Assembly (NCBI GenBank): GCA_009787345.1
Contig: WRGF01000219.1
Location: 1 to 64,000 of the forward strand
Direction of reading: 5' to 3'
Source: Turicibacter sp.
Lineage (GTDB): Bacteria > Bacillota_I > Bacilli_A > MOL361 > Turicibacteraceae
DNA: 64,000 bases
The notes below the pieces were generated by a model, which saw only the letters and a program-made list of their open reading frames with translations, was not told the DNA's origin and ran no database searches. Position numbers and translations under genes: made by a program. The first letter of the stretch is position 1; each line of letters begins with the position of its first letter. Positions 567 to 32,259 of this stretch are shown here, in pieces.

Positions 567-800
567 AATGGTAGTCGGCGAACGGGAATTTTTGAAATGA
601 AGCGGCGTAGAGAATAGGGCCATGGCTGAAAGCCCTTGCGTGAAAATTCAAATGGACACCCGGGAGATGATGCTTTGCAAAGGGCATCCGTAGGAAGGCG
701 TTAACTCTTCAAAGTGGCGAAAACCCGGTTTTCGCAATTAAGGTGGCACCGCGTAGCTTATTACGTCCTTAGAGTTTTTCTAAGGGCGTTTTTTATGTCC
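567..800 (+). promoter_or_regulatory. T-box riboswitch leader of hisS-aspS
   Basis: The conserved T-box AAGGTGGCACCGCG lies at 740-753, followed by a terminator hairpin (ACGTCCTTAGA against TCTAAGGGCGT, 763-789) and a T-run. A TATAAT at 561-566 fits the promoter -10. Upstream is a stem I in which GAATTTT (582-588) pairs with AAAATTC. The loop just 3' of that arm contains GGACACC, holding both GAC (Asp, 655-657) and CAC (His, 657-659). T-boxes bind uncharged tRNA and let transcription continue; here one leader could sense both tRNAs whose synthetases follow. The box and terminator are clear; the stem I pairing is my hand reading. Confidence 0.93.
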
Positions 801-6451: not shown

Positions 6452-6669
6452 ATAAAAACAGGCCCGAAGGCCTGCCATCCGGTATACCGTAGGTGTTAGG
6501 ATGTAAACCCGCTGTTAAGCAGGTGGGTGCCCTCTCTGGTGCATTAGGAGTCCCGAGTGGTAACCACAAGTGGCTAAAGTCGGGCATTCAACACCGCGCC
6601 AGAATACAGGCTCCCTCATCAAAAATGTTCGGATTTAAAGAACTAATCACCTTACGCATATACTAGAAT
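6452..6669 (-). ncRNA. structured RNA A, probable 6S RNA
   Basis: A minus-strand RNA gene of about 218 nt with its own sigma-A promoter and a perfect terminator (CAGGCC-TTCG-GGCCTG then five T, 6454-6474). Its two ends pair (GTATA, CGTA and GGTG near the 5' end with CACC, TACG and TATAC near the 3' end), making a long rod with internal bubbles, the usual 6S RNA shape. 6S RNA binds sigma-A RNA polymerase in stationary phase. In B. subtilis 6S-1 (bsrA) also lies just downstream of aspS, which supports the call. A related copy is at 10170-10370. I cannot run the Rfam model. Confidence 0.6.
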
Positions 6670-6675
6670 AAATCT

Positions 6676-15891: not shown

Positions 15892-16293
15892 TCAGACCGC
15901 CAAAACGTCCTCGTCAGCAGGCAGGTTTACAGTCAAATCGGTGTCGGCATCTACCGTCCCGTCCGCCGGGCGGCGGGTATTTATAAACGAAACCCGGTCG
16001 CCCACCACTTCTGTTGTCCGGATGGCCTTAAAGTTGGGCACTTCATAAGTTCGGGTAATCAGTCTGCCGCGAATGCCGATGACCGAGCCCTTCCCACAGT
16101 ATTCCACTACCTTGTCAGCGTTGGCGCCCCACAAGACCACATTGATAAAATCGGTTTCGAATTCGCCTGTGGCCAGATTTTTATGGGAGCGCTGTACAGC
16201 CAGGGTGACATTGGTAAAAGAGCGGTCTTCCTGAGTTTTTTGGAGCTCGGCATTTCGGGTCATACGGCCTACAATAATTGTATTTTGAAACAT
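15892..16293 (-). CDS. ssb: single-stranded DNA-binding protein
   Basis: 133 residues from the ATG that aligns with family starts (MFQNTIIVGRMTRNAEL). One OB-fold: VTLAVQRS, DFINVVLWGANADKVVEYCGKGS, and GIRGRLITRTYE. The C-terminus is acidic (PADEDVLAV) but lacks the DDDIPF-type tip that recruits partner proteins, so it resembles the SsbB/YwpH class linked to competence more than the essential SSB. The ATG has no Shine-Dalgarno; a GTG 30 bases upstream (16323) has AAAGGTGGTGA at a good distance and would add MPASGWYCEK. The alternative start is real enough to keep in mind. Confidence 0.88.
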   Translation of the reverse strand: MFQNTIIVGRMTRNAELQKTQEDRSFTNVTLAVQRSHKNLATGEFETDFINVVLWGANADKVVEYCGKGSVIGIRGRLITRTYEVPNFKAIRTTEVVGDRVSFINTRRPADGTVDADTDLTVNLPADEDVLAV

Positions 16294-16511
16294 TTTTTCA
16301 CAGTACCAGCCAGAAGCGGGCACTGCTTCACCACCTTTCAATTGGTTATTTTCGTTGCAGTGCGTGTCACACTGTTATTAATAAGCGCCATTAGTAGAAA
16401 TATCCTGCAAAAAAAAATTAATTTTCTTTTTACAAATGAAAAGAAATAACGCTTTCTCGGCATTTTCTGACAAAGAACACAAAAAGAACACATCTTATCG
16501 ACAAACTTTGA

Positions 16512-16717
16512 TATAATTTTATATGTAATCAAGATTCCCCCCCGAATCTTGCATTACATTCCTTTCATTATTGTTTTTCATTTAATTTTTTTACATCCCC
16601 TCATTTAAGAGACTGCATGGATAATATTTGGCACCTTTTTTGCCAAAATCAATGCAATTATACTATTCCCCTCTCTAGGGGCCGAACTCCTCCCCCCCCC
16701 TTGTTCGGCCCCTTTTT
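16512..16717 (+). ncRNA. candidate small RNA with C-only hairpin loops
   Basis: An extended -10 promoter (TGATATAAT, ending 16517) would start a ~195-nt transcript near 16523. It opens with the hairpin ATGTAAT-AAGATTC / GAATCTT-ATTACAT (16523-16559), whose loop is six C and nothing else. A small hairpin TTTGGCA/TGCCAAA follows (16627-16647). It ends with a strong terminator GGGGCCGAAC / GTTCGGCCCC and a T-run (16678-16716), whose 15-base loop is TCCT, nine C, then TT. Single-stranded CCCC stretches also occur at ~16597 and ~16668. No protein frame fits. C-rich loops in Gram-positive small RNAs bind Shine-Dalgarno sites. Confidence 0.6.
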
Positions 16718-16772
16718 CATGCCCAAAAATAAGGAATGGCTGATTTTGCGGACTATCTAATGACGGCTGGTT

Positions 16773-16801
16773 TTGAACTTTTTCTCTATTTTTGGTATAA
16801 T
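16773..16801 (+). promoter_or_regulatory. sigma-A promoter of the methyltransferase-thyA operon
   Basis: -35 TTGAAC (16773-16778), 17-base spacer, -10 TATAAT (16796-16801). It shows that the long upstream open frame is not translated and fixes the TTG at 16835 as the start of the next gene. Confidence 0.85.
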
Positions 16802-23490: not shown

Positions 23491-23608
23491 GGCCTGTCAG
23501 ATGGCATAAGAAAAAGGTAAAATTGAATCAAGGAACAAAGAGGCTGCCGCCAAGTCCGGTACGATTAAGCCAAAGCCTTCAGCATCAACACAAAGAAAGG
23601 GGAATTTT

Positions 23609-23962
23609 ATGAGTATAACCGTATCGCTGCATTCAGAAAACCAGGTTTTATTCGTCAACCTCAGCGGGGAGTTGGACCACCATACGTCGGGCACCCTTCG
23701 AAACCGCTTAAATGAGGTGATGGAAAATTCAAATATCAGGCATCTTGTCTTTAACCTTAAACAGCTGGACTTTATGGACAGTTCGGGGATTGGCATTATT
23801 TTGGGCCGCTACAATCAAGTAAAAAAAGACAATGGGTCGGTAATGGTATTGGGCCTTCGCCCATTGGTAAAGAAAACATTTGAAATGTCTGGCCTTTCCC
23901 AAATCATCAAAATTGTTGATGACGAAGTGGAAGCGGCAGAAATTATAAGGGGGATTGCTTAA
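23609..23962 (+). CDS. spoIIAA: anti-sigma F factor antagonist SpoIIAA
   Basis: 117 residues, start after GAAAGGGGAATTTT. STAS-domain protein that, when dephosphorylated, binds SpoIIAB and frees sigma F in the forespore. The phosphorylation loop is DFMDSSGIGIILGRY with the serine at position 58, matching Ser58 of B. subtilis. First gene of the tight spoIIAA-spoIIAB-sigF operon; one base separates its stop from spoIIAB. Confidence 0.96.
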   Translation: MSITVSLHSENQVLFVNLSGELDHHTSGTLRNRLNEVMENSNIRHLVFNLKQLDFMDSSGIGIILGRYNQVKKDNGSVMVLGLRPLVKKTFEMSGLSQIIKIVDDEVEAAEIIRGIA

Positions 23963-28675: not shown

Positions 28676-28718
28676 GTGGTGGCCTGTCCCATAGAACAGG
28701 CTGCCACTCAGTTTTTTA
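28666..28718. terminator. bidirectional terminator between spoVAF and collagen genes
   Basis: AAAAAACTGAGTGG-GCCTGT / ACAGGC-CCACTCAGTTTTTT, a long stem with runs on both sides; shared by the convergent spoVAF and the collagen-like operon. Confidence 0.93.
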
Positions 28719-29756
28719 TACTTGGGTACCTACTACCGTATCTTGTTGCGCGCCTTGGGCGGAACGGTTTTGTTGGAGGCTAATTTGTGTAATCCTGCCT
28801 GTCGCAGTATCAACTACAATGTTTACATTCGTCGTCTGGTTGACTGGCCCAGCTAGCCCAGTTCCTCCGGTTGGCCCCGGGCTTCCAGTAGGGCCATTGG
28901 GGCCGGCTGGGCCAACATCGCCTGATGTTCCGGGATTTCCCTTAGGGCCAACCGGGCCATCCGGGCCAATGGGGCCGGGATCCCCTTTTTCACCTGCTGC
29001 ACCGGGTAGCCCATCAGCACCTGCGGGTCCTTGAGGACCGGCATTGCCAAGAGGCCCTACGGCTCCTAGTGGGCCTTTAGGACCTACCGGCCCGGTAGGC
29101 CCTGGTGCACCGGCTGGTCCAACGGGGCCGCTGAATCCCGGGTAGCCCATATTTCCCTCAGGGCCAGTAGGGCCACTGTTGCCAATGGAACCCATTGGCC
29201 CGGTAGGCGAGATGCTTCCCCCACTTGGTCCGGTAGGTCCTGGAGGACCGGGCGGGCCCCCTGGGGGGGCTGGCTGGCCTGGAGGGCCTGGATCGCCAGT
29301 GGGGCCGGTAGGACCAAAATTTACGGCAATGCCGGTGGGACCGGTAGGTCCTGGAGTCCCAGGGATTCCTTTGTCCCCGCCTGGGCCTGCCATGCCATGG
29401 GGTCCAGTAGGCCCTTCGTCCCCAGTAGGTCCCGTAGGGCCTGGATTGCCTTGGCTGCCGGGCAAGCCATCAGGGCCAGTAGGTCCAGTAATCCCTGTCG
29501 GCCCTTTAAAGCGCGGGGGATCGAGGATGGGCAACTGGCTGCCGTCCGCAAAGTTGGCAACGCCAAAAACCAGGTTTCCTTGTTCGTCTGCTAAAAAATC
29601 ATAATTAGTAGGAATGGGTCCAGTAGGCCCATTTGGGCCTGTGGCACCATTAGGGCCGGTGGGGCCTATGGATCCCACGCAGTGGCAGCACTTGCAGGAA
29701 GGCGATTGCCTGCAAGCACAGTTTTTATTGCATGGGCCATTGCAGCAAGTTTTCAT
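28716..29756 (-). CDS. collagen-like spore-surface protein 1
   Basis: 346 residues from the ATG after AAGGAGGGTGCTT (the GTG two codons upstream is part of the ribosome site). Architecture: a cysteine-rich cap (nine Cys in residues 4-26), a short Gly-Pro-Thr stretch (31-48), a non-collagen insert (~49-84, [15 protein letters not shown] to LDPPRFKG), a long Gly-X-Y run (~85-305, mostly GPTGP), and a 40-residue C-terminal end. No signal peptide. Such proteins form the exosporium hair nap in Bacillus (BclA family). Last of three tandem genes. Role is inferred from repeats and from sporulation neighbours. Confidence 0.85.
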
Positions 29757-29767
29757 AAGCACCCTCC

Positions 29768-30868
29768 TTATATTTGATTGCCATCAAGGTCAGTCACATT
29801 CCCTTGGACATGGCCACTTACGCATTGGTCGGTAGTGTTTTTTGAGTCAAAACTCGCGTCTTGCTGTGAAGCGCCTGAACTAGTAATGAAACCGGTCACC
29901 GGGTCGACGTAATATTTAAAAAGGACAGGGCGGTAAGTGGTGCCAAATGGGCCAGTGGGTCCAGTGGGTCCAGTCGGCCCTTGGGCACCTGAAGCGCCTT
30001 GCGGGCCATCGGGCCCAGTGCTCCCTTTGTCGCCAACAGGCCCAGCCTGCCCGGGGTTGCCATCAGGGCCGGTATCGCCTGTTTCACCTTTTTCCCCTGG
30101 CGGGCCAGCATTCCCCTTGTTGCCAGCCATGCCAACCGGACCGCGGCTTCCTTGTATCCCATCATCGCCAGGCGGCCCATTTTGCCCAGCTGGCCCGTGA
30201 GGGCCGATTGCCCCTGGAGCCCCGGCATCGCCCGTATCCCCAGTGGGTCCAGTCATACCTATAGGCCCAAATGCACCTTGCAGGCCCGTGGGGCCGGTAG
30301 GTCCCACCGTCGAACCTAATGGGCCAGTGGGCCCAGGCGGCCCGGTAGGGCCGCTGCCGGGCCCTTTCTCCCCAGCCGGGCCCTGAGGGCCTGTAGGCCC
30401 AGGCGGCCCATAACCGCTGCTTGACCCGGCATTTCCAGTAGGTCCAGTCGGACCGCTGCTGCCGGGCCAACCCGTAGGGCCGGTCACGCCGACCTGTCCC
30501 TGTGGGCCGAGGGGGCCAGTTGGCCCTGGGGGCCCAACCTCACCATTTGCCCCTGGAATGCCTTGGGCGCCAGGCGAGCCTGTCGGCCCTTGTGGGCCTT
30601 TTAAGACTGTAGGGTCCAAGACAGGGCTATGGCTTTCATCGGGATAGACCACGTTTGCACTTAAGATATTCCCGGACGCATCGCTGCTAAATTCCCAATA
30701 AGCTGCCCCTGGGGCCGTCGGCCCGAACGGGCCGGTAGGCCCAGAACCGGTCAGCCCGGCTGGTCCCGTAGGACCGAAGCATTTGCAGCATTTCTTGCAC
30801 TGTCCACAACGGCACTGGGCGGAAAGCCCGCACCCACACTTGAATTCATTGGCCAGATTAGGGTTCAT
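29768..30868 (-). CDS. collagen-like spore-surface protein 2
   Basis: 366 residues, AGGAGGTAGAAACC before the ATG. Same plan as its neighbours: Cys-rich cap (eight Cys in residues 11-30), short collagen stretch, insert at ~54-90 ([19 protein letters not shown] to LDPTVLKG), a long GPTG-type Gly-X-Y region to ~310, then a distinct C-terminal piece with [18 protein letters not shown] and one cysteine. The C-terminal domains differ among the three proteins, so they may trimerise separately. Eleven bases before gene 1. Confidence 0.85.
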
Positions 30869-30894
30869 TGGTTTCTACCTCCTTACTGTATCGG

Positions 30895-32025
30895 CTAAGG
30901 GCGTGGGCAAGGGAGTGGGTCAACAACCGTACCAACGGGCTCATCGGTATCATAATCCAATTGTTGGACCGGTACTGTATCGACCCAGCCATTGCTATAT
31001 GTAATCGTAAAAGACGTCGGGAATTTCCCATCCGGTGTCAGGCTATAAGTAAAAGAGGTAATGGCAAGGTATGGCCCTCTCGCGCCTGCGGGACCAGCGG
31101 AACCACTTGCTCCGGTTGCCCCAGCAGGTCCCTGTATCCCTGTATCCCCTTTCGGGCCATCGGTGCCTATTGGTCCCCCGGCGCCAGGATTTCCCTGAGG
31201 CCCCGGATCGCCCTTGGGTCCGGACGGACCGATATCGCCAGCATCGCCAGCAGGCCCTGCTGGACCATCGGGCCCGGCAGGACCAGGATTGCCAGGATTG
31301 CCGGTTCCGCCCATAGCACCCATGGAACCCCTATCCCCAGCAGGCCCCGTAGGCCCGGCTGGACCTTGGGGGCCTTGAAGGCCAGTTGAGCCTGTTGGGC
31401 CATTTTCACCTGCGGGGCCGGTAGGACCTGTTGGGCCAATCGTATCCGAAGGCGGACCTGTGGGTCCGGTAGGTCCCCCAGGCCCATCAAAATCCCCGGG
31501 ATTTCCCGTAGGTCCCGGAAGCCCTGTGGGTCCGGTAGGGCCATTAAAGCCAGTGGGTCCGGTGGGTCCGGCAGGCCCAGGATTCCCTGCAGGCCCAGTA
31601 GGCCCTTTGGGTCCTTGGGCCCCAATAGGGCCAATGCTTATCGGGCCAGTGGGACCAGATATCCCTGGCTGCCCTTTCGGGCCATTTGGACCAGGCATCC
31701 CAGTCGCTCCCCTTGCCCCTTGAAGTGCCTGCGGGTTTTTGAGGATGCCAGTGGAACCTTGGGGCTGGTCGACCCAGCCGCCACTGACGAGGCCATTTTC
31801 ATCAAAAGTAAAGCCAAATCCCAGGTCTAGCTCCCCTGGCGGCCCAGTCGGGCCTGTTGGGCCAAACCCGGCGGGACCAGTAGGACCAGCTGGGCCATAG
31901 TAGCAGCGGCAACAGCTTTTGCAACTGCCAGTCCTGCCATTGCCGCCTTTTTTGGAACAGTTGCTACAGGTCCGGGATTTATGGCAAATGGGACATTTTT
32001 GCCTAAGGTTTGTCATTTCGTCCAT
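30895..32025 (-). CDS. collagen-like spore-surface protein 3
   Basis: 376 residues from the ATG after AAAGCGGGGATAAAG; the longer open frame upstream has no ribosome site. A Cys-rich cap resembling zinc knuckles ([13 protein letters not shown], then CKSCCRC), a short collagen stretch, an insert at ~65-102 ([14 protein letters not shown] ...), a long Gly-X-Y run, and a C-terminal end with [19 protein letters not shown]. First gene of the operon, so it carries the promoter. Divergent from an HxlR regulator. Confidence 0.85.
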
Positions 32026-32060
32026 CTTTATCCCCGCTTTCTCCAAAATTCCCCATAGTA

Positions 32061-32089
32061 AATCTATGCCCGGCAGGCTTCCCTCATGA
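32061..32089 (-). promoter_or_regulatory. possible sigma-E promoter of the collagen-like operon
   Basis: Minus strand TCATGAG (32083-32089), 14-base spacer, CATAGATT (32061-32068), near the sigma-E consensus KMATATT-N14-CATACAMT; the -10 matches 6 of 8. Mother-cell expression would fit an exosporium role. Confidence 0.4.
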
Positions 32090-32259
32090 CTCAAATTCCC
32101 CACAAAATGCTTTAAGGGGTATCCCCCGTGTCACTAAGTGGCTGAAAAGTAACATGCTTATCTAAAACTTTTCCTGGGGGATTCGTGCTAAAGTTGGGCT
32201 TTTTGTCATACGATGGGATAGGGGATAAATTTGTTCGATATTTTATAGGGGGGGTAAGG

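Follow-up and report, generated by a model that had tools for sequence, protein, structure and literature searches.

In the window, the whole 64,000-nt stretch of Turicibacter DNA analysed, a predicted small RNA gene lies between ssb and a methyltransferase gene, with its terminator just 5′ of the latter. The promoter, the hairpin with a six-C loop and the terminator with a nine-C loop that formed the basis of the original prediction can be read directly in the sequence. They bound a 195-nt unit at positions 16523–16717, which we infer to be transcribed. The features discussed below are as follows.

15892–16293, minus strand: ssb (single-stranded DNA-binding protein), oriented divergently and kept next to the RNA.
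16497–16505, minus strand: Spo0A-box-like site, TTTGTCGAT; relatives carry the core TGTCGAA on the plus strand at the same place.
16510–16517, plus strand: extended −10 promoter element, TGATATAAT, with TG in the region of 16509–16510 and TATAAT at 16512–16517.
16523–16717, plus strand: small RNA of about 195 nt; fold z of −8.9, kept in six genomes, 11 pairs changed on both sides.
16523–16559, plus strand: 5′ hairpin with the loop CCCCCC at 16538–16543, which opens the 195-nt stretch directly.
16560–16613, plus strand: linker A, rich in pyrimidines and largely free of pairing; contains UCCCCUC at 16596–16602 and is nearly invariant in six genomes.
16627–16647, plus strand: central hairpin of seven pairs, four with two-sided changes, and a U-rich loop.
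16657–16676, plus strand: linker B (UUAUACUAUUCCCCUCU), unpaired; contains UCCCCUC at 16667–16673, and its core is invariant in six genomes.
16677–16717, plus strand: intrinsic terminator, with a hairpin at 16677–16713, a C-rich loop at 16688–16702 and a T run at 16713–16717.
23593–23627, plus strand: candidate target, the start of spoIIAA (gene 23609–23962) with its ribosome site and first codons, predicted to pair with linker B.

The letters of the extended −10 element are the same in all six aligned genomes, and transcription is probably initiated there by a house-keeping sigma factor. A simple promoter scan omits this promoter because it lacks a TTGACA-like −35 hexamer. For the 195-nt RNA, the predicted fold has an energy of −52.2 kcal/mol (z = −8.9), which none of 200 dinucleotide shuffles equals. 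The terminator loop, TCCTCCCCCCCCCTT, holds nine C at 16692–16700 in the layout TCC-T-C9-TT. Unpaired C-rich motifs are present as the two copies of UCCCCUC. The CCTCC cited in the original prediction as anti-Shine–Dalgarno-like sits inside the terminator loop. A small protein-coding gene was considered and rejected, as the ATG-started open reading frame at 16617–16760 crosses the terminator, and relatives do not share its start codon. Elsewhere in the window, ordinary RNA elements include 6S RNA (6472–6672, minus strand) and a T-box leader before hisS-aspS-like genes (569–773, plus strand).

A DNA search located the same RNA, again adjoining ssb, in five sister-genus genomes of the same family, at 71–75% DNA identity; the remaining matches were AT-rich stretches of 23–49 nt only. 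The conservation in relatives that the original prediction presupposed is borne out in these five genomes, and is accompanied by covariation. In the six-genome alignment, conservation is confined to the promoter, the linkers and the structure, with almost no change in the −10 box, in the linker sequences ACATTCCTTTCATTATTGTTTTTCATT, TTTTTACATCCCCTCAT and TTATACTATTCCCCTCT or in the C-loops. Both unpaired copies of UCCCCUC are invariant in the six genomes. The 5′ loop of the relatives contains 7–8 C after A or AT, and their terminator loop about five C.

Two-sided changes occur in 11 of 36 base pairs of the six-sequence alignment and 96% of cells pair; controls with shuffles and with slid partners both fell far below these values. 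The counts represent few events, given six sequences of which five are close, spread over three separate helices. Five of the covarying pairs belong to the terminator, the stem of which has been rewritten between genera (GGGGCCGAAC versus GGAGAACTGGTG) around a loop that is still C. One helix of the consensus fold, columns 84–86 with 105–107, showed no covariation and was dropped. Base pairs, C-loops and linkers are all maintained across genera of differing composition (47% G+C in the window genus versus 34–37% in the sister genus). The comparison is strong evidence that selection acts on a structured small RNA, and on its C-loops as well.

A covariance model derived from this alignment matched no sequences other than the same six among 395 class genomes, and five of the six among 392 phylum genomes, with one weak match rejected (the two samples overlap, and stricter filters were used). 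The RNA was absent from two genomes of a third genus of the family, laxer filters included, and the region upstream of ssb in one third-genus genome, G001, contains no such RNA. A distant match in G034 (30.6 bits, E 3.6e-4, in 1 of 18 genomes) was rejected as a homologue, being without a C-loop, without the UCCCC of linker B and without ssb as a neighbour. Viral contigs, phages and plasmids yielded no match. Searches of Rfam, at the gathering score and up to an E value of 10, returned nothing credible, in agreement with the original statement that the RNA was unrecognised, and no description of a small RNA in Turicibacter was found in the literature searched.

The core Spo0A box is TGTCGAA (PMC3485338). 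In each of the five relatives this core precedes TATAAT by 6 nt, four of them carry the full TTTGTCGAA, and Spo0A is encoded in all eight family genomes. An exact TTTGTCGAA is expected in about 0.05–0.1% of 40-nt stretches in the sister genus. Boxes with one mismatch are common in the window (18 observed versus 19.8 expected), so its own site is weak as proof. An exact Spo0A-type box, TTCGACAAA, also lies ~160 nt upstream of ssb in the RNA-less genome G001 (L035 1330–1338); the box may therefore serve ssb, and ssb may be under Spo0A control in the family. Regulation of the RNA by Spo0A is possible, and the placement of the box between the −35 and −10 positions would favour repression over activation. 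By eye, Fur- and PerR-like sites at the RNA promoter are poor matches. A conserved palindrome-like sequence, GAAAACGNNTTC, resembling a catabolite (cre) site, occupies the ssb–RNA spacer of L002–L006, ~70–75 nt upstream of the −10 element.

The window genome is that of a spore former, as its proteins, when read, include those of spoIIAA-spoIIAB-sigF, the spoVA genes and spoIVA. Separately, three adjacent genes at 28716–32103 (minus strand) encode long collagen-like proteins with GPTGP repeats, as found on spore surfaces.

Pairing with ribosome sites was analysed in genome samples covering about 15% of each genome. Among 379 genes of the window genome, linker B paired with ribosome sites at a mean of −9.8 kcal/mol (−8.7 for shuffled linker B), with 41 genes below −14 kcal/mol versus 20 for shuffles. 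Linker A paired slightly better than its shuffles with these sites, and the poly-C loops paired worse than theirs. Across 182 orthologue sets, drawn from three sister-genus genomes plus the window genome where present, no segment had a mean pairing that clearly beat shuffles of the same composition, and the best set was no better than the best shuffle sets. Composition thus accounts for most of the anti-Shine–Dalgarno appearance. Repression of mRNAs through G-rich ribosome sites, as originally proposed, is plausible on grounds of conservation and analogy; the pairing of linker B in its own genome speaks for it, the result from the orthologue sets against it.

Near-perfect linker complements were no commoner than those of reversed patterns, and three of the four places read are ribosome sites or leaders. 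Those of linker B include the ribosome sites of a short-chain dehydrogenase gene within a sugar-acid operon (G006) and of a cation-antiporter-like gene (G002) (L069 and L070, 1501–1517). Another (L068, 1501–1517) falls within the leader preceding a MerR-type regulator operon of G003, a genome with no detected copy of the RNA.

None of the sets tested contained a significant target. The candidate spoIIAA opens the operon that controls the earliest forespore sigma factor. In all four genomes, the start of the gene offers linker B possible pairing around AGGGGAUU or AGGGGAAU and with AGUAUAA; with each genome's own linker, the energies range from −14.9 to −16.9 kcal/mol and rank 6 to 23 among 337–424 genes. 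No other set has a run of four or more G upstream of the start in every one of the four genomes. The spoIIAA set is third of 182 by energy, with a p value of 0.016 as a single test that is not significant after multiple testing. Because many sets were tested and the choice was made afterwards, spoIIAA is a lead, not a finding. That a Spo0A-linked RNA represses spoIIAA, by linker B covering the ribosome site and first codons, is accordingly a long shot; if true, an RNA would serve as a checkpoint for entering sporulation in a lineage where Hfq is not detected.

On balance, the RNA is probably an independently transcribed, trans-acting regulator whose C-rich surfaces pair with G-rich ribosome-binding sites and block translation. 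The comparison shows a self-contained gene that carries a conserved −10 box and a terminator of its own, a hairpin closing the very start of the predicted transcript, and a central hairpin. The two C-loops and the two unpaired UCCCCUC stretches would pair with the G-rich ribosome-binding sites of selected mRNAs, and this pairing would block their translation. Retention of the C-loops despite the changed terminator stem, the covariation and the invariant linkers are counted in favour of a regulatory RNA. Hfq was detected in none of the eight family genomes (five control genomes were positive), so the RNA would act alone or with another chaperone. The mycobacterial 6C RNA reportedly acts alone, going by the entry for Mai et al. 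in the reference list of the B11 paper.

An unlikely alternative is that the C-loops and linkers, instead of being antisense sequence, bind or sponge up a protein of the KH-domain, cold-shock or a similar RNA-binding type. Such a role would suit long, invariant, pyrimidine-rich linkers whose pairing with ribosome sites does not exceed that of shuffles, as well as two C-loops borne on hairpins of differing stem sequence. However, no protein partner is known, the two exact UCCCCUC heptamers resemble antisense seeds, and the cited C-rich small RNAs work by pairing. It is also conceivable, if decidedly unlikely, that the RNA or its promoter mainly serves ssb in cis, for example through transcription interference, with the RNA itself secondary. 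RNA and ssb are adjacent and divergent both here and in those relatives whose neighbourhood was read, and the pair has been inverted as a block relative to its M16 peptidase and methyltransferase flanks between genera (window 15892–16717 versus L005 970–1745); the Spo0A-like box 5′ of ssb in the RNA-less G001 points the same way. Yet interference requires no selection on internal pairs, loops and linkers, and the RNA and ssb do not overlap.

The position of the terminator just 5′ of the methyltransferase gene in the window would suit a leader or attenuator, but this reading is extremely improbable. The gene downstream of the RNA in the sister genus is a convergent peptidase gene, a change of neighbour that excludes a conserved leader function, and the methyltransferase gene has its own promoter-like site at 16773–16801. 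Equally hard to credit is a chance spacer with a terminator and C runs. Its promoter was indeed missed by the simple scan, but conservation and covariation across genera of 47% and 34% G+C make chance very unlikely.

With trans-acting regulation as the preferred reading, the RNA can be set beside known small RNAs. The Bacillus RNA ncr1241 (RF02451) shares a 3′ UAxUAUUCCCC shortly before its terminator, but is shorter, and its model reaches only chance level here, with 19.5 bits (gathering score 60; E 0.74). CsfG, a sporulation small RNA of Bacillus, has conserved CU-rich loops and linkers (PMC3574147). CsfG (Rfam ylbH, RF00516) resembles the present RNA as a spore former's small RNA with CU-rich loops and linkers, but is flanked by ylbG-ylbH rather than ssb. 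Membership was rejected, as none of the eight family genomes matched and the B. subtilis control was positive; a single 26-bit match (gathering score 50), in L003, lies on the opposite strand and outside the RNA. The conserved −10 element, apparently of house-keeping type, also argues against CsfG-like forespore expression (sigma F and G).

The original comparison with actinobacterial 6C RNA holds for architecture: two hairpins carry loops of about six or more C (six and nine in the window), one near each end, as in 6C/B11. It does not extend to membership, for which no covariance match was obtained up to E 10 in the region or up to E 1 in relatives. Furthermore, the present RNA, from another phylum, has an extra ~115 nt between the loops, containing the central hairpin and the UCCCCUC linkers. 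In mycobacterial B11, either C-loop represses an mRNA with six G (PMC10470900). IsrR, a staphylococcal iron-sparing RNA, uses unpaired C-rich regions to pair with ribosome (Shine–Dalgarno) sites (PMC9410917). The RNA, likened here by its published description, has its own terminator, and one of the C-rich regions is a hairpin loop with four to seven C. IsrR is controlled by Fur; for the present RNA no Fur-like site was recognised by eye. Like IsrR, the present RNA is structured and independent and has conserved C-rich stretches that stay unpaired. Most likely, the RNA represents a new, lineage-specific family of the C-rich-loop kind, outside Rfam. It would add an RNA family to this family of spore formers and offer a concrete, testable candidate for RNA control there, with the C-rich-loop design of 6C and IsrR seen in a lineage without detectable Hfq.
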